From: Streptosporangiales bacterium
Lineage (GTDB): Bacteria > Actinomycetota > Actinomycetes > Streptosporangiales > WHST01
Reading direction: 5' to 3'
Assembly: GCA_009379825.1 (NCBI GenBank)
Contig: WHTA01000010.1
Span: 1 to 64,000 of the forward strand
DNA length: 64,000 nt
Of this stretch, positions 9,357 to 56,724 are shown one piece after another. The translations under genes and the position numbers were made by a program. Numbering within the stretch: position 1 is the stretch's first letter; every line of letters starts with the position of its first letter. The notes under the pieces were generated by a model that searched no databases, was not told the origin of the DNA, and saw nothing but the letters and a program-made list of their open reading frames with translations.

Positions 9357-10190
9357 TCAGGCGCGCTTGGCGGCGCGCGCGTAGAGCAGGTCGGCGGTCA
9401 GCCGGTCGACGCGTTCTTCGGTCATCCGCTCGCGCAGGGCCGCGCGCACCCGGCTCGCGGCAATCCGGTCCATCGCGTCGACCAGCAACCGGTAGCCGGA
9501 TCCGAGGATGACGGTCCAGAAGGCGTCCGGGTCCGTCGGACGTGTAACGGTCTCGCGCTCGACGGCCGGGGCCGGCAGGCCGGCTGCGGCGAACACCCCG
9601 GCGAGCTTCTCCGGGCTGTTGATCCGCTCCCACGGGATGCTCGCCGGTCGCAGGTCAGGACGGACCGCGCCGACCGCGTCCAGGTACATGGCGTTGCCGG
9701 GCTCGAGCGCCCGAGCACCCCAGGTGGTCACCGCGAGGGTGCCGCCTGGCCGCACGACGCGCCACAGCTCGGCCACCACCGCCGGCAGCTCGACGGCGAA
9801 GTACAGCCCGAGCACGCAGAGCACCACATCGTAGGTCGCGTCCGGCTGGTCCAACGCCGTCATCTCACCGCGGACGAAGCGCACGTTGGTCAGGCCCTGC
9901 CGTGCGGCCTTCACCCGTGCCCGCGCCAGTGGACCGTCCGCGATGTCGATGCCGACGACGGAGCCGACCGGCGCCACTCGCGCAGCGGCGGGCAACGCCG
10001 ACGCGCCCGTGCCGCAGCAGACGTCCAGTACGCGGTGCCCGGGCGCGACGCCGGCCAGAGCGACGGTCCGCGCGCCGCAGTGGTCCCAGAAGAACAGCTG
10101 CGGGTCGTCGAAGTGCTCCGCCGCGGCGTTGAACGTGGCACGCACCAACCGGGCACGGGTGCCATCACGCACCGCAGGTCCGGTTGCCAT
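9357..10190 (-). CDS. SAM-dependent methyltransferase of the RiPP-like locus
   Basis: A 277-residue class I methyltransferase with motif I VLDVCCGTGASALP, then VVGIDIADG and a VVRPGGTLAVTTWG strand, as in the UbiE/Methyltransf_11 group. It is the last gene of the peptide operon. Its ATG at 10190 lies 2 nt after the stop codon of the small peptide gene at 10193-10435, which argues for translational coupling. By position it is the only visible candidate tailoring enzyme for the peptides; N- or C-terminal or side-chain methylation are all possible. A general small-molecule methyltransferase caught in the operon is the alternative. Confidence 0.8.
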   Translation of the reverse strand: MATGPAVRDGTRARLVRATFNAAAEHFDDPQLFFWDHCGARTVALAGVAPGHRVLDVCCGTGASALPAAARVAPVGSVVGIDIADGPLARARVKAARQGLTNVRFVRGEMTALDQPDATYDVVLCVLGLYFAVELPAVVAELWRVVRPGGTLAVTTWGARALEPGNAMYLDAVGAVRPDLRPASIPWERINSPEKLAGVFAAAGLPAPAVERETVTRPTDPDAFWTVILGSGYRLLVDAMDRIAASRVRAALRERMTEERVDRLTADLLYARAAKRA

Positions 10191-10192
10191 GG

Positions 10193-10435
10193 TCACCCGA
10201 AGCCGAGCCACACGCAGGCTGCCGCGGCAGGTGGACAGCTCCACCCCCGCGTACCCGGGTGACGGAACCAGCTCGGGTCGCCCGGGTGATGGTCACCGTA
10301 GTTGCCGCCGAGCGGCACGACGAGGACCTCGAGGAGTTCGCCGCTGTTCGGGTCGATGATCGGCTTCCGTTCCATGAACTGCTCGTATGTCACCCGGCGG
10401 TCGATCGGCCGCTGCACTGGCAGGTTGAGTCGCAC
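10193..10435 (-). CDS. Small peptide with divergent leader motif (P4)
   Basis: An 80-residue product beginning near LNLPVQRPIDRR, a one-residue-shorter version of the leader motif in the three upstream peptides. It lacks GVEA and continues into a longer acidic/aromatic region (PNSGELLEVLVVPLGGNYG, then HHPGDPSWF) ending with a Cys-Pro-Ala-rich tail and two cysteines. It may be a precursor of a different class, or a small accessory protein that binds the protease or methyltransferase. GTG at 10435 has GGGAG 7 nt upstream; a longer start at 10474 (GTG) is possible. The stop is 2 nt before the methyltransferase start. Confidence 0.55.
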   Translation of the reverse strand: MRLNLPVQRPIDRRVTYEQFMERKPIIDPNSGELLEVLVVPLGGNYGDHHPGDPSWFRHPGTRGWSCPPAAAACVWLGFG

Positions 10436-10539
10436 GTGCGTACTCCCGTCGTCTGCGCGCCGAAGCGCGCTCACGCCATGAACTTGCAGCCGACCGGGCC
10501 GTCAGCTCTGTCGCCGGCGGCCCGGTCAGCACGCCCCGG

Positions 10540-10746
10540 TCAGATACCGAAACCGCCCAGGATCGGCAGCGCTGTCTGGGCGACGGTGCCGACACCGCGG
10601 ACGATGTCGTCGAAGAGGCCGTCGGCCTCGACACCACCACCACTGGCACCACCCGCGCCGGCACGCGTCACCGGCACCGCCTGCGACGGCAGGCTCAGTG
10701 CCGGCGACCGCAGTGCGGCCTTTGTGTGAATCGGCTGGTCGATCAT
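10540..10746 (-). CDS. Putative cyanobactin-like precursor peptide P3
   Basis: A 68-residue peptide. The leader carries LPSQAVPVTR at residues 19-28 and a Gly/Ala linker, then GVEA at 38-41, which resembles cyanobactin recognition sequence II, G(L/V)E(A/P)S. If cleaved after GVEA the core would be 27 residues, starting DGLFDDIVRGVG and ending PILGGFGI. It is hydrophobic and can form an amphipathic helix. GGAG lies 6 nt before the ATG at 10746. It is the third of three tandem peptide genes with the same plan, downstream of a PatA/PatG-type protease. No C-terminal AYDG-like macrocyclisation signal is present. Confidence 0.65.
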   Translation of the reverse strand: MIDQPIHTKAALRSPALSLPSQAVPVTRAGAGGASGGGVEADGLFDDIVRGVGTVAQTALPILGGFGI

Positions 10747-10789
10747 CTCTCACTCCTCACTCGATGAACCTTCGTGCTGGCGTGGTCGT

Positions 10790-10975
10790 TCAGCTGTTCA
10801 GCCACTCCTTGGCGTAGGGCCACACCACTCCACCGGCGCCCTCGAGGACGTCACCGATCGGCAAGCCCCAGAGGTTGGCCTCCACGCCGTTGCCGGTGGC
10901 CGTGGCCGCCGACGGACCGATGCGGTTCACTGGTGCCGCCTGCAGCGGCATGTGCAGGTTCGCTGTGTGCGTCAT
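10790..10975 (-). CDS. Putative cyanobactin-like precursor peptide P2
   Basis: A 61-residue peptide with leader motif MPLQAAPVNR (residues 9-18), an 11-residue linker and GVEA at 30-33. The inferred core of 28 residues runs from NLWGLPIGDVLEG through GGVVWPYAKEWLNS. It has three tryptophans, is acidic in the first half and has a Pro-Tyr near the end. GAGGAG lies about 5 nt before the ATG at 10975. Same orientation and spacing as P1 and P3; function is inferred only from motif sharing and position. Confidence 0.65.
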   Translation of the reverse strand: MTHTANLHMPLQAAPVNRIGPSAATATGNGVEANLWGLPIGDVLEGAGGVVWPYAKEWLNS

Positions 10976-11035
10976 CTCGTCTCCTCGTGGTTGCGTTCCA
11001 CCTGCGGCCGGTCAGCGCCAGGCGTCGGCGGACGC

Positions 11036-11230
11036 CTAGACCGACACCCCGTACTGCGTCGCGTAGCACATCTGCCTGGCCATGCCCCTGAGGTGGCTAC
11101 AGCGCGACTGGGCTGCTTCCACACCACCTTCGGACTCCTGCCACGCCAGGTCGTAGTGATCCCGGTTCACCGGGCGTGCCTGGACCGGCAGCGCGACGGT
11201 CGACCGCCGGGATCGCAGTGGGCTCGACAT
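11036..11230 (-). CDS. Putative cyanobactin-like precursor peptide P1
   Basis: A 64-residue peptide with leader motif LPVQARPVNR (residues 14-23), a 12-residue linker and GVEA at 36-39. The inferred 25-residue core is basic and contains two cysteines (C44 and C55) that could form a disulfide or a thioether-type ring, with the end MCYATQYGVSV. A strong AGGAGGT lies 6 nt before the ATG at 11230. It directly follows the protease gene (30 nt gap), so the two are almost certainly co-transcribed. Confidence 0.7.
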   Translation of the reverse strand: MSSPLRSRRSTVALPVQARPVNRDHYDLAWQESEGGVEAAQSRCSHLRGMARQMCYATQYGVSV

Positions 11231-11260: not shown

Positions 11261-13426
11261 TCAGGTACCGAGGAACCGGTGCGCGGGCGCAAGGCTGACG
11301 GGCAGCTCGTCGCTGACGTCGATGGTGAACAGGTACGAGACCCGGGCGCGTCTCTCGTTCTCCGGGTCGAAGAAGGTCGCCACGACGTCCCAGCAGTCCG
11401 AGTCGACCCGGTCGTAAGGGCTCTTCGCGACGGTGATGGTGTCCAGCGTGTAGAGGCCGACGTTCCTGCCCGGCACGTACCTGCCGGACATCAGGCCTGC
11501 CCTGATCTCGTTGGTGAACATGAACGCGTTGGTGCCCGCGTAGTTCAGCGCACGGTCGGCCGGCGTCTGGCCGAGGTTCCTGAACTGGTAGTACACCTTG
11601 TCCAGGAAGGCCCGGACGTTCTGCCGCAGGATGTCTTCGTCGAGCTCGTCCTCCGTGGTCTTCGCGACATCGGCGGTGACCTGCTCCACGGAGGCTTCCA
11701 CCAACGCCGCTTCGTTCCAGGTGTGGATGCCGCGGCTCTTGACCTCGACGACGGGCACGACCTGTCCGGAGAACAGCCGCACCGTGCGGTTCGTCAGCAC
11801 ACCGGGAACGGACACCCGGGAGATGAAGCCGCCCTCGTCGACCGGGCGTGCCTGCCCGGCGATCGCGTCCCTGAACATCTTGTACACGTGCGACACCGGC
11901 GGGAAGGCGGACAGGTTGGTCAGCATCTCGGCGAGATCCGCCGGCCGGCCGGCCGCCTGCTCGAGGCGATCACTGTCCCAGGTCGGGTCGACGACCGGCT
12001 CGCCCCAGTCCATGCCGACCGGCAGCTCCGCCTCGAGCGCGTAGAGCGGAGTGCGGTCCATGTTGAGGGTCCACGTCAGCTTGTCCGACGCCCACGGATT
12101 CCGCGCCAGGTAGGCACTGAGCTGGTTGGGGTCGTACGGGTTCGCCGCCACCGTGGTGTAGGTCTCGGGCTGCTCGCCGCCCGGCGCGGACACCGCGAAC
12201 GGGTCCATCTGTTGCCGGAAGCTGTCCCTGCGCGCCTCGGTACGGAAGTCGAAGCCGATCGTGCCGATCACGTAGACCAGCGACTTCGCACTCTCCCCGC
12301 CGCACTCGCAGCTGGCGGCCGGGCTCACGCCGGGTGCCGGCCGAGCGGGCGCGGCAGCTGCCGGTACCGCGCTGGCCTGCGCACCTACGGCGGGCTCGAC
12401 CGGCACTTCGGCCGGTGGGGCGCCCTCACACGCCGCCTGTACACCCGCCGGCTGAGCTTCAGGTGCAGCCGGCACCGCCTGCTGTGCCGCGGGCTGCACG
12501 TCCTGCGCTTGCATCGTTGGTGAGTCGGAAGTCGTCACAGCTATGTCCCTTCCCCGAGTGATCAGGGCGTACGCCCTTGCCCCGTTGAGCTTTCCGGCGA
12601 GGTACTTACGGCAGTCGGGTGCGACCACCGGGTCGCATTCGGTAGCGCCGCCGACGATGGCGTCGCGTACCGCCAACGGATCGGGCGCGTGCCCATCGGC
12701 CAACTGGCTCGCCAGCAACAGCGCGGCGACGCCGGACACCACGGGCGTGGCGAAGCTGCTGCCGGTGAGCGCCTGCTCCCCGCCACCGGGCGCCGCGCCC
12801 ACGATGTGCTGGCCAGGGGCGAGCACACCGTTGTTCTGGTACTCCTCGCCCCAGTTGTTCGCCGCGAGCGGCTCGCCGCTCCCGTCCGTCGCACCGACGG
12901 CGACCACCGAGGAGACCGCCGCGGGCACCTGCAGACAGTCGCATCCGTCGTTGCCGACCGCGGCTACGACGAGCACGCCGTTGTCCTCGCACAGTTGTAG
13001 CGCTCGGGCGAGGATGGGGTCCGGCACTCCGCCAGGGGTGCGCTCACCACCGCTGATGTTCACGACGTGGGCGCCCTCTTGCACCGCACGCTCGATGGCT
13101 CGCGCGAGATCGAGCTGCGACACGCGCGTGTCGCTGCCGTCGCGGAACACCGGCAGTAGCAACCCGCGGCAGCGCGGCGCGATACCGACGACGGGCGAAC
13201 CGGGTTGGCCGAAGAGCAAGCTCGTCACGTGCGTACCGTGCAGCGACATCGGGCCGATTCCCGCGGGATCCTGCACGAGGGTCCCGAGCCTGGTCAGATC
13301 CGCCCCGGCGAGACACGGGTGCGCCTGGTCGACGGGACCGTCGAGAACGGCGATGCAGATCGCGGGGTCACCCAGATTCTGGGCCAGTCGCAGTGGCAAC
13401 CCTGGCACGGCCGACCGTACGTCCAC
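11261..13426 (-). CDS. PatA/PatG-family cyanobactin-type maturation protease
   Basis: A 721-residue protein. Residues 1-290 are a subtilisin-like S8 protease with D29 (VLDG), H63 (LHGTHV), oxyanion N159 (AVGND) and S224 (TGSSFATP). An Ala/Pro linker (about 296-371) with a CEC pair at 373-375 leads to a C-terminal region (381-721) starting LVYVIGTIGFDFRTEARRDS, which matches the C-terminal domains of PatG-type proteases. There is no signal peptide, so processing should be cytoplasmic. The likely job is leader cleavage of the peptides encoded next door, perhaps after GVEA. GGAGGT lies 5 nt before the GTG at 13426. Macrocyclase activity is uncertain because the peptides lack an AYDG-like tail. 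Confidence 0.8.
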   Translation of the reverse strand: MDVRSAVPGLPLRLAQNLGDPAICIAVLDGPVDQAHPCLAGADLTRLGTLVQDPAGIGPMSLHGTHVTSLLFGQPGSPVVGIAPRCRGLLLPVFRDGSDTRVSQLDLARAIERAVQEGAHVVNISGGERTPGGVPDPILARALQLCEDNGVLVVAAVGNDGCDCLQVPAAVSSVVAVGATDGSGEPLAANNWGEEYQNNGVLAPGQHIVGAAPGGGEQALTGSSFATPVVSGVAALLLASQLADGHAPDPLAVRDAIVGGATECDPVVAPDCRKYLAGKLNGARAYALITRGRDIAVTTSDSPTMQAQDVQPAAQQAVPAAPEAQPAGVQAACEGAPPAEVPVEPAVGAQASAVPAAAAPARPAPGVSPAASCECGGESAKSLVYVIGTIGFDFRTEARRDSFRQQMDPFAVSAPGGEQPETYTTVAANPYDPNQLSAYLARNPWASDKLTWTLNMDRTPLYALEAELPVGMDWGEPVVDPTWDSDRLEQAAGRPADLAEMLTNLSAFPPVSHVYKMFRDAIAGQARPVDEGGFISRVSVPGVLTNRTVRLFSGQVVPVVEVKSRGIHTWNEAALVEASVEQVTADVAKTTEDELDEDILRQNVRAFLDKVYYQFRNLGQTPADRALNYAGTNAFMFTNEIRAGLMSGRYVPGRNVGLYTLDTITVAKSPYDRVDSDCWDVVATFFDPENERRARVSYLFTIDVSDELPVSLAPAHRFLGT

Positions 13427-13635: not shown

Positions 13636-16251
13636 TCAGCAGTCGAGCACCATGGCAGCGAGATCGGCCCGCCTGGTGACGCCGAGCTTCGCCGACGCCC
13701 GGTAGAGATGGCCTTCGACCGTACGCACCGACACGACCAACCGGTCCGCGATCTCCTTGTTCGTCAGCCCCCGCGCGGCCAGCGTGACGATCTCCCGCTC
13801 CCGCCCCGTCAGGGGGAGCGGGCGTGCGACCGCGACCAGCGCCGGCGTCCTGGCGCCCTCGCAGCTCTGCGCCAGGCGGTACGCCCGCGCCGCCGCCGAC
13901 TGCGCCGCGGCACCTGCTCCGCGACGGCCATACCCGGTCGCGGCCTGCGCGGCGGCGTCGGCAGCCGGCACCAGGTCGCCCATCCGTTCCCACCGCACCG
14001 ACGCCTCGTCGAGAGCCACACCGTCGTCCGCGCCGAGCGCGGCGGCGTGTGCGGCGGCGACCTGCGCCCGCGGGCCGTCGACCGACCTCGTCAACTCGGC
14101 CAGCCGTGCCGCCGGGGTCGGATCGCCGAAGCAGACGGCCGTGTGCAGCGCCAGCACTTCGTGTGCGAGCTGCCCGGCCCGTGCCGCCTCACCGGCTGCG
14201 GTGGTGGCCAGCTCGATCGCCTGCGTGACGGCACCTCCCGCGGCGGCCACCCAGGCGTGGGCCAGCGACAGCTCGGGAGCCAGGAAACCGAACGCGGGAT
14301 GCCGGCCCGCTTGCAACTCCGCCAGCGTCCCCTCGGCCGCGGCCCGGTCGCCCGACATCGCGAACGCCTCGGTCAGGCTGAGCAGGCAACGGAACTCCCA
14401 GCCGGGCACGTCGGCATCGGCCAGGCCGGCCCGCGCCTCCCGCAACCACCTGACCGCCGTCCGCAACCGCCCGCGCGCGAGGGCAGCATGCCCGAGCAGG
14501 GTCACGCCCATCAGGTGCAGGGGGCCGAACACGCTCGCACTCTCCGCCCGGCGGTCGTGCGCGATCCGGTCGAGCTCGTCCAGCCGGCCGGCCAGCCGCA
14601 GCACGATCATGTGCAGGTCGCTCAGCCCGAACCGGAGCACGGCACCGTCGAACGGCCGGGTGCCGGCCGCGTAGCCCCGCGCCGCCGCCGCCTCCACCTC
14701 GTCGCAGCGACCGGTGAGCCCGAGACCGAGGACCAACCCCCACGTCGCGAGCACCACCTGCTCGTCCGGCAGGTCGGCAGCGGCGAGGGCGGCACGCGCG
14801 CACCGCACGGCCTCGTCCGGCCGACCGGCGAAGCCGTGGAACGCGGCACGCATCGCCGTCAGTGCCTGCCGTTGCGCGGCGTCGCTGATCGCCGCGTCGG
14901 CCGCGTCTATGACGGCGACGGCCTCGGCCGGTTTGCGCAACGTCCAGAACAGGTTCCCCGACCGCACGACTGCCACCTGCCGGCGCTGGACGTCTGTACG
15001 AGCGACCTCGCCGAGCTCGGCGAGCTCACTGTCGACCTTGGCGCCGCGGTCGAGCCAGGTGAGCGCGTACGCCAAGGTGAGCCTTGGTTCGAATCCGCCG
15101 CCGGCGGCGATCGCCGCACGGGCGAGTCGTTCCGCAAGTGCGAGGTCGACGAAGCGGATCGCCGACTGCGCCGCGGAGGCCAAGAGCTCGGGATCCGGCC
15201 GCAGGTCGGAGTCGAGGGCGAACACGGCGCGACGCAACCTGTCACTGGCGCGCCGGTCGGCGAACGTCGCCATGGCGGTGGCGATCCGGCCAGCGAGTCG
15301 GCGGGCGCGCAGCCGACCGATCGCCGCGCGCCGCACTTCGCCGAAGAGCGGGTGGGTCAACCTGGCCCGTAACCGCTGGCCGTCGCGCTCGACGGTCAGC
15401 ACACCCGCCGCCTCCGCCGCTTCCACCACCGCGGGGTCGACCAGCTGCAGCAGGAGAGGTACGCCCAGCGGCTCCCCTACGGCCAGCACGTCGACCGCTT
15501 CGCGTACCGGCTCCGACAGAGCGCCCATCCGTGCCTCTATCAGCTCGGCCAACCCGGGCGTGATGGCCGGTTTCCCCGTCCACCGCCAGACGCCGTGGAC
15601 CGAGCTCAACCGGCCGGCCGCCCGCTCACCGTCGACGAGCTGATGGAGGTACAGCACGTTGCCCTGGGTCAGCGCCCACATCCGCGCCGCGCTGATGCTC
15701 TCCACCGGGCCACCGAGCACTGCCTCGAGCAACCTCGTGCTCTCGTCCTCGGACAACGGCTGCAGCTCCAGCCGGTCGAGGTGCCCGTCCTTCCACAACG
15801 CCGTCACCGCATCAGGCGATGTCCCACCGGTCCGCACCGTGACGACGACCGCGGCCGCCCGGCTCACCACCAGCTGGTGGACCAGCAGGGCCGAGAGCTC
15901 GTCGAGCAGGTGCGCGTCGTCGACGCCCACGACCACACCGGCGGTGTCCGGTACGGCGAGCAACCTGTCCCTGGCCGCCTGCAGTGCGCGGGCCGGGCCA
16001 CCGCCGGCGGCTCCCACCCAGGCACCGAACGCACCCATCGGCACCTGACGCGCGGAGAGGGTCGCGGCCACCCACCGGGTGACGTCACCGCGCCGTCCGG
16101 TCGAGGCGAGCGTTTCGCGTGCCAGCCGGGTCTTGCCTACGCCCGCTGCTCCCGCAAGCACAGCGCCTCGTGGTCCGTCGCGCGGGCGTAATGCGTCGTG
16201 CAGAAAACCCAGTTCCTCGGCCCGCCCGACAAGCGGCCACTCGCACCCCAT
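13636..16251 (-). CDS. LuxR family regulator with AAA/STAND ATPase (LAL type)
   Basis: An 871-residue regulator. The N-terminal ATPase has Walker A GAAGVGKT (34-41) and a Walker B-like VVVGVDDAHLLD around residue 110. A long helical repeat middle region (TPR-like, about 300-800) follows, and a C-terminal LuxR HTH (about 812-871, LTGREREIVTLAARGLTNKE then VRTVEGHLYRASAKLGV) ends the protein. Such large LuxR proteins usually activate secondary-metabolite genes. It lies between operator A (upstream, before the small HTH gene) and operators B and C (before the protease operon), so it likely controls both. The ATG at 16251 begins MGCEWPLVGRAEEL, a typical start; no clear Shine-Dalgarno is seen. 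Confidence 0.85.
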   Translation of the reverse strand: MGCEWPLVGRAEELGFLHDALRPRDGPRGAVLAGAAGVGKTRLARETLASTGRRGDVTRWVAATLSARQVPMGAFGAWVGAAGGGPARALQAARDRLLAVPDTAGVVVGVDDAHLLDELSALLVHQLVVSRAAAVVVTVRTGGTSPDAVTALWKDGHLDRLELQPLSEDESTRLLEAVLGGPVESISAARMWALTQGNVLYLHQLVDGERAAGRLSSVHGVWRWTGKPAITPGLAELIEARMGALSEPVREAVDVLAVGEPLGVPLLLQLVDPAVVEAAEAAGVLTVERDGQRLRARLTHPLFGEVRRAAIGRLRARRLAGRIATAMATFADRRASDRLRRAVFALDSDLRPDPELLASAAQSAIRFVDLALAERLARAAIAAGGGFEPRLTLAYALTWLDRGAKVDSELAELGEVARTDVQRRQVAVVRSGNLFWTLRKPAEAVAVIDAADAAISDAAQRQALTAMRAAFHGFAGRPDEAVRCARAALAAADLPDEQVVLATWGLVLGLGLTGRCDEVEAAAARGYAAGTRPFDGAVLRFGLSDLHMIVLRLAGRLDELDRIAHDRRAESASVFGPLHLMGVTLLGHAALARGRLRTAVRWLREARAGLADADVPGWEFRCLLSLTEAFAMSGDRAAAEGTLAELQAGRHPAFGFLAPELSLAHAWVAAAGGAVTQAIELATTAAGEAARAGQLAHEVLALHTAVCFGDPTPAARLAELTRSVDGPRAQVAAAHAAALGADDGVALDEASVRWERMGDLVPAADAAAQAATGYGRRGAGAAAQSAAARAYRLAQSCEGARTPALVAVARPLPLTGREREIVTLAARGLTNKEIADRLVVSVRTVEGHLYRASAKLGVTRRADLAAMVLDC

Positions 16252-48687: not shown

Positions 48688-50655
48688 CTACGCCGCCTCC
48701 CTGATCGTTCGCACCGAAGCCGACAACGCGTCGGCCGCCAGCTCGTCGAGGCGCAACACGTTGCCGCGCAACGCATCCGCGAGCTTCGCGGCGAGGCCGA
48801 GCCGCACCGGACCGTTCTCGCAGTCGACGACCACGCTCGCGACGCCGGTCGCCGCGAGCCAGTCGGCGGCGGCGTATGCGTCGCGCAGCGGTTGCTCGCC
48901 GCCGGTGGCGCGGCCGTCGGTGACGACGACGAGCAGTGCACGCCGCGACGGGTCGCGCAGCCGCTCCACCCGCAACACGTCGGCGGCACGCAGCAACCCG
49001 GCAGCCAACGGGGTACGGCCACCTGTGGGCAGGTCGGTCAGCCGCGTCGCCGCCGTGTCGACCGACGACGTCGGCGGCAACGCAACCTCCGCCGCATTGC
49101 CGCGGAACGTCACCAGGCCGACCTTGTCGCGGCGCTGGTACGCGTCGAGCAGCAGCGAGAGCACCGCGCCCTTCACAGCGCCCATCCGTGCCCGCGCCGC
49201 CATCGAACCGCTGGCGTCCACGGCGAACAACACGAGGTTGCTCTCGCGGCCCTCGTGCCGCGCCTCGCGCAGGTCGCCGCGCCGCAACACCAGGCCGGTG
49301 CCGCTCCGCCCGCGCGCGTGCTGGTGCGGCGCCGCCGCGGCCACCGTGGCGGGCACGTGCAACCTGGTCACCGTGGCCCGCGGCACCGCCGCGCCGGTCA
49401 CCCGGCCTGAGTCGGTACGCGCCCGCGACCGGCGCCCGGCCGCGCCGGTCCCGACGCCTGGCACCTCGAGCCGGCGCGCCGCGAACGTGGCGCCAGGCGC
49501 GGCCGTCGAGGTCCCGGCAGGCGCATGCCCATTGCCCTGCGCCGAACTCGTCTCGTCGCTGCTCGTCGTCGTGCCGCCGTCGTCCGGTGCCGGCGCACCA
49601 TCACCGGGGCCGTCGTCGTCCGGGCCGTCAGGATCGTTGTCCTCGGGTGTCTGCTGTGCCTCGTCGAGTGCCTGGTCGAGCTGCTCCTCGTCCAGCTGCG
49701 GGGCGTCGAACGGGTTGCGCCTGCGCCGGTGCGGCAACGCCAACCGGGCGGCCACCCGTACGTCCTCGGCGGTGACCTCGGTACGGCCCTGCCAGGCCGC
49801 GTGTGCGAGCGCGGCACGCGCGGTAACCAGGTCGGCGCGCAGCCCGTCGACGTCGAACGACGCGCACACCGACGCGATCTGCCGCAGCGCCGCGTCCGGC
49901 AAGGCCACGTCGGGCAACCGCCGGCGGGCCGTCGCGATGTCCGCGGCGAGCGCGGCTTCGGCGTCCGCCCACTTGTCGGTGTAGCTGCCGGGGGCGGCGT
50001 CGTGCGCGAGCCTGCGCCTGACCACCTCGCTGCGCAGCTCCGCGTCGCGAGGGGCGGCGACGTCGACGGTGAGGCCGAACCGGTCGAGCAGCTGCGGGCG
50101 CAGCTCGCCCTCCTCCGGGTTCATCGTGCCGACGAGCAGGAAGCGCGCGGCATGGCGTACCGACACGCCCTCGCGCTCGACGTACGACGTGCCGAGCGCG
50201 GCGGCGTCGAGCAGCAGGTCCACCACGTGGTCGTGCAGCAGGTTGACCTCGTCGACGTACAGCACGCCCCGGTGCGCGGCGGCGAGCAGACCCGGTTGGT
50301 ACGTCTGCACGCCCTCGGTGAGCGCGCGTTCCACGTCGAGCGAACCGACCACGCGGTCCTCGCTCACCCCGACCGGCAGCTCCACCAGCCGCGCGGACCT
50401 GGTGGTCGCGCTCGACCCGTTGTGCGGTCCGTCCACGCACTGCGGGTCGGGCGTCGCGGGATCGCAGGAGAACCGGCAGTCCTGCACCACCGGCACGTTG
50501 GGCAGCAACGCGGTCAGCGCGCGCACCATGGTCGACTTCGCGGTGCCCTTCTCGCCGCGGACGAGCACCCCGCCGATGGCCGGCGACACCGCGTTCAACA
50601 CAAGCGCCAACCGCGCGTCGTCCATCCCGACGACCGCCGTGAACGGGTAGCTCAT
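48688..50655 (-). CDS. Magnesium-chelatase-like ChlI-ChlD fusion (cobaltochelatase AAA+ partner)
   Basis: A 655-residue AAA+ ATPase fused to a vWA domain. The N-terminal half has Walker A GEKGTAKSTMVRALTALL and Walker B VLYVDEVNLLHDHVVDLLLD with LLVGTMNPEEGELRPQLLDR. An acidic, proline-rich linker (around residues 320-440) follows, then a MIDAS vWA domain with FAVDASGSMAARARMGAVKG. It takes the place of CobS and CobT (chelatase) in actinobacteria and drives metal insertion with CobN. It overlaps CobN (ATGA) and abuts CobO. Confidence 0.9.
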   Translation of the reverse strand: MSYPFTAVVGMDDARLALVLNAVSPAIGGVLVRGEKGTAKSTMVRALTALLPNVPVVQDCRFSCDPATPDPQCVDGPHNGSSATTRSARLVELPVGVSEDRVVGSLDVERALTEGVQTYQPGLLAAAHRGVLYVDEVNLLHDHVVDLLLDAAALGTSYVEREGVSVRHAARFLLVGTMNPEEGELRPQLLDRFGLTVDVAAPRDAELRSEVVRRRLAHDAAPGSYTDKWADAEAALAADIATARRRLPDVALPDAALRQIASVCASFDVDGLRADLVTARAALAHAAWQGRTEVTAEDVRVAARLALPHRRRRNPFDAPQLDEEQLDQALDEAQQTPEDNDPDGPDDDGPGDGAPAPDDGGTTTSSDETSSAQGNGHAPAGTSTAAPGATFAARRLEVPGVGTGAAGRRSRARTDSGRVTGAAVPRATVTRLHVPATVAAAAPHQHARGRSGTGLVLRRGDLREARHEGRESNLVLFAVDASGSMAARARMGAVKGAVLSLLLDAYQRRDKVGLVTFRGNAAEVALPPTSSVDTAATRLTDLPTGGRTPLAAGLLRAADVLRVERLRDPSRRALLVVVTDGRATGGEQPLRDAYAAADWLAATGVASVVVDCENGPVRLGLAAKLADALRGNVLRLDELAADALSASVRTIREAA

Positions 50656-53600
50656 CCGTCTCCTTCCAGGTCGCCTTCGAGCTCTAGGTAGGTGTCCTGC
50701 AGCTGCTGCACGGTGTCCGGGTCCGGCTGCGCCCACAGGCCGCGGTCGGCGGCCTCGAGCAACCGTTCCGCGATGCCGCGCAGCGCCCACGGGTTCGACC
50801 GCTGCATGAACTCGCGCACCTGCTCGTCGAAGACGTACGACGCGGCGAGCTGCTCGTACATCCAGTCGTCGACGACGCCCGCGGTCGCGTCGTAACCGAA
50901 CAGGTAGTCGACGGTGGCGGCCATCTCGAACGCGCCCTTGTAGCCGTGCCGCTGCATTGCCTGCATCCACCGCGGGTTCACCACCCGCGCGCGGAACACC
51001 CGCTTGGTCTCCTCGGCGAGCGTGCGCGTGCGCACCTGGTCGGGCACCGCGGAGTCACCGACGTACGCGGCCGGCGAGCTGCCGGTGAGCTGCCGCACCA
51101 TCGCTACCATGCCGCCGTGGAACTGGAAGTAGTCGTCGGAGTCGACGATGTCGTGCTCGCGGGTGTCCTGGTTCTTCGCGGCGACGGAGATCCGGCGGAA
51201 CGCGCTCTCCATGTCCGCACGCGCCTCGCGTCCGTCCAGGCCACGACCGTACGCGTAGCCGCCCCACACCGCGTACACCTCGGCGAGGTCGGCGTCGGTG
51301 CGCCAGTTGCGTGCATCCATCAACGGCAGCAGGCCCGCGCCGTACGCGCCAGGCTTGGAACCGAAGATGCGTGCGGTGGCGCGGCGCCGGTCGCCGTGTG
51401 CCCGCTCGTCCTCGACCACGTGCGCGCGCACGTAGTTGTCGTCCGGCGACTCGTCGAGCTCGGCGACCGTACGTACGGCGTCGTCGAGCATGGCCACCAC
51501 GTGCGGGAAGGCGTCGCGGAAGAACCCGGAGATGCGGATGGTCACGTCGATGCGCGGCCGGCCGAGCTCGGCCAGCGGCGTCACCTCGAACCCCGTGACC
51601 CGCCTGGACGCGTCGTCCCACGTCGGTTGCACGCCGAGCAGCGCGAGCACCTCCGCGATGTCGTCGCCCTGGGTGCGCATGGCCGACGTGCCCCAGACGG
51701 TTAGCCCCACCGAGCGCGGGTACTCCCCCGTGTCCTCTTGGTGCCGCGCGATCAGCGAGTCGGCCAGCGCCACACCGACGTCCCAGGCATTGCGCGACGG
51801 GATGCCCTTCGGGTCGACGGAGTAGAAGTTGCGGCCGGTCGGCAGCACGTTCACCAGGCCGCGGGTGGGCGAGCCTGACGGGCCCGCGGGCACGTAGCCA
51901 CCGTCGAGTGCATGCAGCAGGTTGCCGACCTCGTCGGTCGTACGCGCCAACCGCGGTACGACCTCGGTGGCCGCGAACTCCAGCACCCGCACCACATCCG
52001 GGACTTCGCGGCCGAGCACCTCGACGGTCACCGAGGGCGCCTTCGTGACGTCCCAACCGCTGGTGTCCATCCCCACGACCAGCTGCTTGGCCAGCGTCTC
52101 GAGCACGTCCACCACGTCCGCACCACTGCCACCCGCGGCCAGCTCGCCCAGCGCCTGCGGTGCCTCGACCCGCTCGCCCGGGGCAGCGAGCAACGTGCGC
52201 TCGTCGAGGTCGAACGCAGCGGCGATCGCGGATCGCAGTCCTGGCAACGCCTGCCGCCCGCCCCACACCTGATTCGCGCGTAGCACTGCGAGCACCGTGT
52301 CGACCAGCTGTTCGCCTGCGGGCGCGTTGCCGAGCACGTGCAGGCCGTCGCGGATCTGTACGTCCTTGACCTCGCAGAGGTACCCGTCGATGTGCATGAC
52401 GAAGTCGTCGAACTCGTCCTCGGCGGGCATCTCGTCCTGGTGCAGGTCGTGGTGCAGCTGTGCCGCCTGCACGAGCGACCACACCTGCGCCCGCACGGTC
52501 GGCAGCTTCGCCGGATCCAGCGCCTGCACGGTGGCGTACTCGTCGAGCAGCTGCTCCAGCTTCGCCAGGTCCCCGTACGTGTCCGCGCGCGCCATCGGCG
52601 GGATCATGTGGTCGACGACGGTCGCGTGCGCGCGCCGCTTGGCCTGCGTGCCCTCGCCTGGGTCGTTGACGATGAACGGGTACACCAGCGGCACGTCACC
52701 GAGCACCGCGTCGGGAGCGCACTCTGCGGACAGCCCGAGCCCCTTGCCCGGCAACCACTCCAGCGTGCCGTGCTTGCCCAGATGGACAACCGCGTCGGCG
52801 CCGAACTCGGTGTCGAGCCAGCGGTACGCGGCGAGGTAGTGGTGGCTGGGTGGCAGGTCGGGATCGTGGTAGATGGCCACCGGGTTCTCGCCGAAGCCGC
52901 GCGGTGGCTGGATCATCAGCACCACGTTGCCGAACTGCAGCGCGGCGAGCACGATCTCGTCGCCGTCGACGTACAACCCGCCTGGCGGTTCGCCCCAGTG
53001 CTCGCGCACGTTCTCGCGCAACGCCTCGGGCAGCGACCCGAACCACTCCCGGTAGTCCGCGAGCGGAACCCGGAACGGTGCGACGGTGAGCTGTTCCTCG
53101 GTCAGCCACTCGACGTCGTGCCCACCCGCGGCGATCAGCCGGTGTACGAGCTCGTCGCCGTCGTCGGAGAACCCGTCGCCGACGTCGTATCCGGCCTCCT
53201 GCAAGGCCTGCAGCACCACGACGGCCGACGCGGGGGTGTCCAGGCCAACCGCGTTACCGACCCTGGCGTGCTTGGTGGGGTACGAGGAGAGCACGAGCGC
53301 GAGCCGCTTGTGCGGGTTAGGCGACCGCCGCAGCCGCGCGTGCCGTACGGCGATACCCGCAACCCGGGCGGCGCGCTCGGGATCGGCGACGTACACCGGT
53401 ACGTCGTCGTCGCTGGTCTCCTTGAACGAGAACGGCACGGTGACCAGGCGGCCGTCGAACTCGGGGATGGCCACCTGCATCGCCGCGTCCATCGGCGTAA
53501 GCGCGGCGTCCGAGTCGTGCCAGGTCTGCCACGGCGAGGTGAGGCACAACCCCTGGACGACGGGGACGTCGAGAGCGGCGAGCGCGCCTACGTCCCAGCC

Positions 53601-54308
53601 GTCCTCGTCGCCGCCTGCCGTTGCGTCGGATGCCACGGCGCCACCGGCGGCGAGCACGGTCACCACCAAGGCGTCGAGACCGCCGAGCAGCTCGTAGACC
53701 TCGGCGTCCGCAGAACGCAGCGAGCCGCAGAACACCGACAGGGCGTTGGCACCCGCCGCCTCCACGGCGTCCGCCAGCACGTCGACGAACCCGGTGTTGC
53801 CCGACACCGCGTGCGCGCGGTAGAAGACGATGCCGACCGTCGGCCGGTCGTCGCGGTGTTCGCGCGTGCCGTGGATTCCGCTGCTGGGCAAAGATTTCGG
53901 CGGCTCGAAGCCTTCGCCGGTGAGCCTGATGGTGTCGGAGAGGAAGTTGGCCAGCTCCGCCAGGTTGTCCGGCCCGCCCTCGCGCAGGTACTCGAGCGCC
54001 TGTGTCGCCACGCCGCCCGGCACGGTCGACAGCGCCATCAGCTCGGCGTCCGGCGTCGGCTCACCGCTGAGCACGACGACGGGAACCCCCGCGTCGAGCA
54101 CCGCCTTGAGTCCCTGTTCCCAACTGCGCTTGCCCCCGAGCAACCGCACGACGACGCAGTACGCGCCGTCGACGAGTGCCGGCACGTCCGCCGCCTCCGT
54201 GCGTGCGGGGTTGGCCAACCGCCACGGCGCGCCGCTCGACTTCGCAGCGAGCAGGTCGGTGTCCGCGGCGGAGAGCAACACGATCGGCTGTGGTACGTCG
54301 GCTGTCAT
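50652..54308 (-). CDS. cobN: Cobaltochelatase large subunit CobN
   Basis: A 1218-residue protein of the CobN/BchH family with blocks [61 protein letters not shown], and [20 protein letters not shown] near the end. It inserts cobalt into hydrogenobyrinate a,c-diamide with ATP (late insertion). Its presence beside CbiX, CbiD and CbiG (early insertion) gives a mixed gene set. ATG at 54308 overlaps the CobQ stop. Confidence 0.93.
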
Positions 54309-55792
54309 GGCGCCCCCGGTGGTAGCAACGGCAAATCCTTCGGCACACCCGCGTCGAGCAACCGGAGCAAGGCGTCGGTATCCAGGTGCTCGGCGACCAA
54401 GTCGCCGAGCCCGTCCAGCCGGCGTTGCCGTACCTCGGCGAACGACACCTCACCCGCGAGCACGAACCTGCGCCCGGACTCCGCGGCGACGGTACGCAGC
54501 AACGCACGGCGGAACCCGTCGCACTCGAGCACGCCGTGCCACGTCGTGCCACGTACGGCACCGACCGCGCACCCGCCGAGGAACGGGTCGCCGGCCTCGA
54601 CGTCCACCACACCGTGGTGGATCTCGTAGCCCTCGACCGGTTCACCGAACGCCGAACCGGTCGGCCGGCCGAGGGTCTTCCCCGGCAGGAACCGCACGCT
54701 GGCAGGCAGCAGGCCGAGCCCCGCTACCTTGCCGGCGCGGCTCTCCACGTCGTCGTGGATCTCGCGGGCGAGCATCTGGTAGCCACCGCAGATGCCGAGG
54801 ATCGGGCGCCCGGCGGCGGCGCGCTCGGCAAGCACGTCGGCGATGCCACGCTCACGCAGCCAGCCGAGGTCACCGACCGTCGCGCGGGTGCCAGGCAGCA
54901 CCACCAGGTCGGCGTCGTGCAGCTCCGCCGGCGACGTGACGAACCTGACCACCACACCGGGCTCGGCGGCCAGCGCGTCCACGTCGGTGAAGTTGCTGAT
55001 CCGCGGGAACCGTACGACGGCCACTCTGAGCACGTCGTCACCGGCCGGTGGCGTGGGCTCGGCGTTGCGCCCTGCGGCGAGGTCGAGGGAGTCCTCGGCG
55101 TCCAGCCAGAGACCGTGCAGCCACGGCAGTACGCCGAACACCTGGCGGCCGGTGTGGTCACGCAACATGTCCAGGCCAGGCGCGAGCAGCCGATCGTCGC
55201 CGCGGAACTTGTTCACCACGAACCCGGCGATCAGCCGCTGGTCGGCGGCGTCGAGCAACGCGAGCGTGCCGTACATGCCGGCGAACACGCCGCCCCTGTC
55301 GATGTCGCCGACGACGAGCACCGGCAGGTCGGCAGCACGGGCCAGCCCCATGTTCGCGATGTCGCGGTCACGCAGGTTGATCTCCGCCGGGCTACCCGCG
55401 CCCTCGCAGATCACCGCGTCGAAGCGGGCGCGCAGATCGGCCAGGCAGTCGTTGACCGTCTGCTGCAGCCGCGGCTTGAGATCGCGGTACGACAGCGCGT
55501 CCACCTCGGCCACCGGCTGGTCGAGCAGCATCACCTGGGTGCGTTCGCCGCCCGGCTTCAGCAGCACCGGGTTCATCGCGCCCTCGGGCTCCACGCCGGC
55601 CGCGGCCGCCTGCATCGCCTGCGCCCGGCCGATCTCCGCGCCGTCGCGAGTGACGTACGAGTTCAGCGACATGTTCTGCGCCTTGAACGGCGCGATCTTT
55701 ATGCCGCGCCTGGCCAACCATCGGCAGATCCCGCCGGTGACCACGCTCTTGCCGGCGTCCGACGTCGTCCCCGCGACCAGCAGCCCGCTCAC
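54305..55792 (-). CDS. cobQ: Cobyric acid synthase (CobQ/CbiP)
   Basis: A 495-residue glutamine-dependent amidase for side chains b, d, e and g. The N-terminus starts [20 protein letters not shown] (P-loop) and [20 protein letters not shown]; the glutamine amidotransferase domain has [15 protein letters not shown] and later a HHGVVDVE region with the catalytic His. GTG at 55792 overlaps the CbiB stop (GTGA). A longer in-frame start at 55843 is unlikely. Confidence 0.93.
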
Positions 55793-56724
55793 CGCCGACC
55801 ACCCCCGCACGCCACGGCAGTGACGGCAAGCGCCACGGCCCACAGCAGCAGCGAGAGCCGTACGGCGCGGGCGATGTCGTCGACCTCCGGTGTGTTCCCG
55901 TTACCCAGCGTGCCGCGGCGTTCGCGCTGCCCGGCGTAGACGTTCGCGCCGCCGAGCCGCAGCCCCAGCGCACCGGCGAACGCGGCCTCCACCCGGCCGG
56001 CGTTCGGGCTCGGGTGGTCGCCGCCGTCGCTGCGGGCCACCTGCCACGCGGTGGCCGCGCTGCCGCCGACCAACGGCGCGAGCGCGGCAACCAGCAGTGC
56101 AGTCAGCCGGGCCGGCACGAGGTTGGCGAGGTCGTCGAGGCGCGCTGCGGCCCAGCCGAACCGCAGGTACCGCGGGCTGCGGTGGCCGACCATGGCGTCC
56201 AGCGTGTTGACGGCCCGGTACGCGAGCAGGCCGGGCACGCCTGCGACCGCACCCCAGCACAGCGGTGCGACGACCGCGTCCGCGGTGTTCTCCGCCACCG
56301 ACTCGACGGTCGCGCGGGTCAGCTCGGCGCGGTCGAGGGTGTCGGCATCGCGGCCGCACAGGTGACCGAGCCTGCCCCGTGCCTCGGGGACCCGGTCGTC
56401 GCGCAGCAGGCCGGCCATGGCCGTGCCCTCGCGCGCCAGCGTGGTGCCGCCGAGTACCGCCCACGTGCTGACCGCGACGGTCGCCACCCGTACGGCCGGC
56501 TGCCGGCTCACCCGCTGCAGCGCACAGCCGAGCGCCGTCGCGCCACCGACCAGTGCCGCCGTGTACAGCGCACCCCTGCCACGTGAGTCCGCCCAGCACC
56601 GGCGTTCCGCGGCCGCTGCAAGGCGGCCGAAGGCCGCAACCGGATGCGCACGACGTGGGTCGGCGAACGCCAGGTCGAGGACGGATCCGAGCAGCAGCCC
56701 GAGCGCGCGCTCGGACAGCCTCAC
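55789..56724 (-). CDS. cobD: Adenosylcobinamide-phosphate synthase (CbiB/CobD)
   Basis: A 311-residue integral membrane enzyme joining the aminopropanol (phosphate) to the f carboxylate. Family motifs are [58 protein letters not shown] and [23 protein letters not shown] at 56724 is about 110 nt downstream of the riboswitch aptamer. First gene of the operon. Confidence 0.92.

Follow-up and report, generated by a model that had tools for sequence, protein, structure and literature searches.

A lone PatA-type protease and neighbouring peptides with a two-part cyanobactin-like leader in a Streptosporangiales bacterium

Small adjacent genes whose products begin alike and end differently raise the question of what kind of peptide system they encode and which enzyme reads their common part. 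Such a run occurs on contig WHTA01000010.1 of a Streptosporangiales bacterium, of which the first 64,000 nucleotides (hereafter the window) were analyzed. Four peptide genes, P1 to P4 in this order, all lie on the minus strand downstream of a protease gene (11261-13426). The first-pass annotation had proposed that three of these peptides share a leader block and a GVEA motif resembling a cyanobactin recognition sequence, next to a PatG-type protease.

Peptide genes and their two-part leaders

P1 (11036-11230, minus strand) contains LPVQARPVNR, a spacer of 12 residues and GVEAA, with the leader block PVQARPVNR located by motif scan at 11162..11188 and GVEAA, which resembles recognition sequence II (RSII) of the cyanobactins, placed at 11111..11125 by its position in the translation and by comparison of 49 leaders. 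P2 (10790-10975, minus strand) has MPLQAAPVNR, an 11-residue spacer and GVEAN (block PLQAAPVNR from the motif scan at 10922..10948, RSII-like site at 10874..10888), and P3 (10540-10746, minus strand) has LPSQAVPVTR, a 9-residue spacer and GVEAD (block PSQAVPVTR from the motif scan at 10663..10689, RSII-like site at 10621..10635). Cleavage is predicted behind GVEAN and GVEAD, with the predicted cores LWGLPIGDVLEGAGGVVWPYAKEWLNS in P2 and GLFDDIVRGVGTVAQTALPILGGFGI, which is amphipathic, in P3. All three genes start with ATG and are preceded by purine-rich, ribosome-site-like stretches. The order of parts, P-x-Q-x-x-P-V-x-R and then GVEA at the spacings given, was absent from all 200,000 shuffles made per peptide, and P-x-Q-x-x-P-[VI]-x-R occurs only four times when the 64 kb window is translated in six frames (∼128,000 residues), three of them in P1 to P3. 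Neither the motif parts nor their order are expected by chance, and the coordinates and shuffles agree with the annotated sharing of the block and GVEA by three adjacent peptides.

Known PatA enzymes cut behind G(L/V)E(A/P)S (PMC10885120). The proposed likeness of GVEA to RSII holds for its place, before a variable core and beside a protease of the PatA/PatG family, but it extends to GVEA and not to the full G(L/V)E(A/P)S, since the fifth residue in the window is A, N, or D where the cyanobactin consensus has S; in relatives of the system, GVEAS, GVEPS, and GIEPS are found. Similarly, the divergence of cores after GVEA applies to P2 and P3, which are variable-core precursors (type B), but not to P1 (type A), where the leader is followed by a conserved C-x10-CYA core. 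In the P1-type peptides of 13 loci, both cysteines of C-x10-C are invariant, and G and A(R/Q) between them are kept in nearly all. P1 is a separate conserved type, whose sequence suggests a conserved product or signal rather than a variable one.

P4 (10193-10474, minus strand) carries the shortened block LPVQRPIDR and lacks GVEA, as had been annotated. Its true start may be a GTG at 10435, giving VRLNLPVQRPIDRR...RGWSC...CVWLG. The block and a GDP-P stretch are common to the P4-type proteins of 14 loci, which usually also have RGW-C...C-W-G. An NCBIfam search of P4 gave no PatB match, whereas the P4-type profile compared with PatB gave P=1.5e-5, weaker without the block (P=0.01); the part outside the block scored 16.8, above the maximum of 13.6 among 200 column shuffles. 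Judged from these profiles, P4 is probably a divergent PatB. The block is also present in PatB itself and underlies its match to the precursor profiles, which exceeded every shuffle; PatB-family proteins sharing PxQxxPVxR with precursor leaders occur at L013 2822-3073 and L097 9501-9713 and, probably, at window 10193-10474. This common block is a hint at the role of PatB. No PatC was seen.

The protease and its neighbors

The protease (11261..13426, minus strand) is an S8 enzyme of 721 aa with PatG_D and PatG_C (DUF) domains (TIGR03895, PF00082, PF18047, PF18065), and scores 616 bits against TIGR03895, the PatA/PatG cyanobactin maturation protease family (cut-off 421). Its annotation as PatG-type was ruled out by the tree, the ranking of PDB matches and the loop length. 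A tree of 35 proteases places it within a 13-member actinomycete clade (100/100), which joins cyanobacterial PatA (100/98) apart from cyanobacterial PatG; its best PDB match is the N-terminal cyanobactin protease PagA (4h6w, E 5e-97), with the PatG macrocyclase 4aks reaching only 3e-47; and its Asp-His stretch has 49 residues, compared with 50 in cyanobacterial PatA and 85 in cyanobacterial PatG, so that the 36-residue macrocyclase insertion of the latter is absent. Because the second proteases of actinomycete PatA+PatG pairs likewise have no such insertion, more weight is given to the tree than to the loop. On this sequence evidence, the protease is of the PatA type, a predicted leader cutter. 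No second TIGR03895 protein above the cut-off is present in its own genome, so no PatG partner was found, and no YcaO protein was found there either. The stretch QARPVDE within the protease was considered as a copy of the leader block and rejected, since it is unconserved in Saccharopolyspora soli and in cyanobacteria (GQVLPPD, GQIQPEN) and is taken as chance.

The gene immediately following P4 in the same orientation (9357-10244) encodes a SAM methyltransferase, and a LuxR-type (AbsR2-like) regulator is encoded at 13636-16251. Both were rejected as conserved parts of the cassette. Homologues of the window methyltransferase are lacking near all other solo-PatA loci, and the methyltransferase found in S. 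soli ∼2 kb upstream of the protease also has no match at the other solo-PatA loci. A SARP/BTAD regulator stands divergent beside the protease in S. soli (L012 2984-3703) and at ten other loci (Streptomyces, Saccharopolyspora) in place of the LuxR-type gene, which is therefore at most a local replacement. Across the cassette, neither an exporter nor an immunity gene nor a modifying enzyme was found to be conserved, with no macrocyclase, YcaO heterocyclase or prenyltransferase seen. In addition, a conserved protein of ∼260 aa with no Pfam match (CHGQGRAADF...HIHMQ) and a metallopeptidase-like look is encoded near seven solo-PatA loci (L012 7981-8772; L064 12704-13480; L092-L095; L065 14003-14509), though not in the window. 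The CobN-type chelatase and CobB/CobQ-like genes at window 50652-55843 represent ordinary cobalamin biosynthesis.

Related loci and the border between leader and core

At least 12 further loci with the cassette (Streptomyces, Saccharopolyspora, and others), or at least 13 counting the window, were found. In S. soli (L012), five small genes that share the leader block follow a protease relative (61% identity), and the genome has one PatA, no PatG and no second family member above the cut-off. Further solo-PatA loci (L064/L116, L065, L066, L090-L095, L100, L113-L115) came from actinomycete genomes searched with profiles and from a search of plasmids. Most of these loci encode, besides the protease, a single P1-type peptide, a single P4-type protein and between one and four variable peptides; public annotation labels the protease "S8 family serine peptidase" and the peptides "hypothetical protein". 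Among 392 genomes sampled from the genus Streptomyces, about 2% carry the solo-PatA cassette, and a P1 profile gave 10 strong matches, all adjoining solo PatA or, in one case, its remains; the profile was built partly from the same loci, so this result shows absence elsewhere rather than independent discovery. In that one case (L130 7608-8524), a solo-PatA gene decayed to fragments stands beside a recognizable P1-type peptide. A leader search of 72,556 plasmids matched only five records, each also holding solo PatA. At L065 (G359 contig 1), the cluster stands close to each end of a contig of 7.1 Mb, in what look like terminal inverted repeats; other Streptomyces carry it on plasmids. Two extra precursors with a like leader (L115 9305-9838, minus strand) are encoded on the HUAS 31 plasmid ∼3 kb from the main cluster, in the opposite orientation.

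Conservation in homologous loci had been set beforehand as a check on the motif pair, and both parts were kept in all 49 leader-bearing peptides (P1 and P2/P3 types) from at least 13 loci, with the GVEA-like site mostly 12–13 residues behind the block; in a few rows, the automatic pick took an earlier G-x-x-x, and a better site is visible in those rows. Leaders at L064 that are 93–100% identical through GVEAN precede three distinct cores, and at L065, two cores follow identical leaders ending in GVEPS. Near-identical leaders followed by unrelated cores place the leader/core border at RSII. No recognition sequence III (RSIII) and no tail follow any of 36 type B cores, which all end at the stop codon and contain no cysteine (36/36). 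Their mean Eisenberg hydrophobicity is 0.47, compared with about −0.1 for the leaders, with a net charge near zero, and 23 of the 36 exceed shuffled versions of themselves in amphipathicity, a count in which related cores are not independent. The hydrophobic moment compared with shuffles gave p=0.001 for P3 and p=0.10 for P2. Predicted products vary widely in length, from 9 to 38 aa; the linear free-ended cores predicted for the Streptomyces carrier NBC_00299 are GLINLLAKGIGSLFG, GFLDEWGPKIARGIGGLFG, and FLPLLGALGSLLF.

The block might have seemed private to the window system, but it equals the N-terminal block of cyanobactin PatE leaders, where the strict form occurs as LPNQGAPVIR and LPHQGKPVLR (L013/L014). 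No window precursor scored above a family cut-off in NCBIfam, and the best match of P2, a weak one (E 0.15) spanning both blocks, was TIGR04446 (PirE; anacyclamide/piricyclamide precursors), against which a precursor from an actinomycete PatA+PatG cluster gave 0.0014. In profile comparison, the solo-PatA leaders resemble the precursors of such clusters (P=4.8e-8). Recognition sequence I (RSI) is the leader stretch that recruits the heterocyclase. No LAELSEEAL-like RSI stretch was seen in the 49 leaders, as expected without YcaO.

Proposed working and its alternatives

The locus probably encodes a minimal cyanobactin-derived system in which PatA would read a two-part leader, cut after RSII and free peptides that are most likely linear. 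We infer that the block PxQxxP(V/I)xR serves for docking, followed by a spacer of 9–14 residues and then RSII in the form G(V)E(A/P)(S/N/D/A), and that the cut falls behind RSII, which would set free the C-terminal segment up to the stop codon. Because the cores end at the stop codon and there is neither an RSIII nor a ring-forming enzyme, the product should be linear. The likeliest product set, as the sequences suggest, is linear helical peptides freed by a lone PatA; those of P2 and P3 would be unmodified or barely modified, near-neutral, hydrophobic, amphipathic and bacteriocin-like, and membrane action is the likeliest use of such cores. P1 would yield a conserved C-x10-C peptide that has its own function, and P4 would act as a PatB-like accessory with the docking block and without the cutting site.

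Modification of the cores before the PatA cut, by an enzyme such as the SAM methyltransferase, draws on the placement of this gene immediately behind P4, in the same orientation, and on the methyltransferase upstream of the S. soli protease, but it is unlikely given that neither enzyme has a homologue at other solo-PatA loci, the type B cores are free of cysteine and the genome has no YcaO. A macrocyclic cyanobactin-like system, with the lone protease both cutting the leader and joining the core ends, is consistent with the presence of macrocyclases in TIGR03895 and with the FADEGDE-like tails of precursors from actinomycete PatA+PatG relatives. This is nevertheless very unlikely, because no RSIII or tail follows the 36 type B cores and the tree places the protease with PatA; the missing PatG Asp-His insertion points the same way, although it is not decisive alone, given the second proteases of the actinomycete pairs. 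That the peptides are propeptide- or inhibitor-like regulators of the protease, with GVEA as a substrate mimic and no released product, draws on the block in P4 and PatB without a cutting site and on the lack of any exporter seen; it appears most improbable, since C-terminal parts that are hypervariable while their leaders are identical, together with repeated copies of the genes, fit products rather than inhibitors.

The preferred reading, release of linear peptides by a lone PatA, has its nearest parallel in the anacyclamide/piricyclamide systems (PirE/AcyE, TIGR04446), which also combine a two-part leader without RSI, a PatA protease, a PatB-family protein (a probable one here) and variable cores. 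Unlike these, the window system has no PatG macrocyclase and no RSIII, with no prenyltransferase seen; its cores are longer, Cys-free, amphipathic and end at the stop codon, and the C-x10-C peptide P1 is additional. With patellamide-type systems (PatA-PatG, PatE TIGR03678), it shares the PatA-type protease, the N-terminal leader block and an RSII-like site, but not PatD/YcaO, RSI (LAELSEEAL), PatG or repeated core cassettes. Actinomycete pair clusters (L036, L038, L040, L097, L098) are alike in leader block, probable PatB-family protein and the absence of a visible heterocyclase, and differ in having two proteases of another protease clade and FADEGDE/FAGDDAE-like precursor tails. PatA+PatG-like pairs with a PatB-family protein and such precursor ends, again with no heterocyclase seen, occur at these five loci and at L042 and L044, and the tails suggest that their products are probably macrocyclic cyanobactin-like peptides outside cyanobacteria. 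The linear cyanobactins aeruginosamide and viridisamide (PMC4663559) also combine linear products, here predicted, with a cyanobactin protease system, but they comprise 3–5 residues with thiazole, prenyl and methyl groups (PMC4663559), in contrast to predicted ribosomal segments of 9–38 residues with no thiazole, prenyl or methyl enzymes of that kind. Similarly, the class III lanthipeptide protease AmyP is an S8 protease that cuts leaders at an E-containing motif ((T/S/A)EVE; PMC10885120), as predicted here, but it belongs to another protease family, and no lanthionine synthetase was seen here.

In the literature found, cyanobactin-like genes of actinomycetes receive passing mention only, for example in Saccharopolyspora NFXS83 (PMC10145562), and no PatA-only system is described in the open-access literature; subscription journals fell mostly outside this scope, and an earlier description is possible. 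Records scattered over the chromosomes and plasmids of actinomycetes as "hypothetical protein" or "S8 family serine peptidase" can be read together as one peptide system, whose products are searchable by exact mass owing to the predictable cutting site. No binding of PatE by the PatG domain was found in PMC4259220. Conservation of PxQxxPVxR and GVEA(S) without a heterocyclase or macrocyclase suggests that both are read by PatA rather than by PatD or PatG, and the leader jobs of cyanobactins become separable in solo-PatA systems, where few other parts would confuse tests of what PatB and the C-terminal PatA/PatG domain do. A bolder and more doubtful proposal is that these loci form a recurrent actinomycete PatA-only class, in which leader removal without ring chemistry would release helical peptides without modification, in families of several to a cluster behind one leader, and PatB-family proteins with the same docking block would act on the same protease site. 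If true, this would give a first role to PatB and to the conserved N-terminal leader block.
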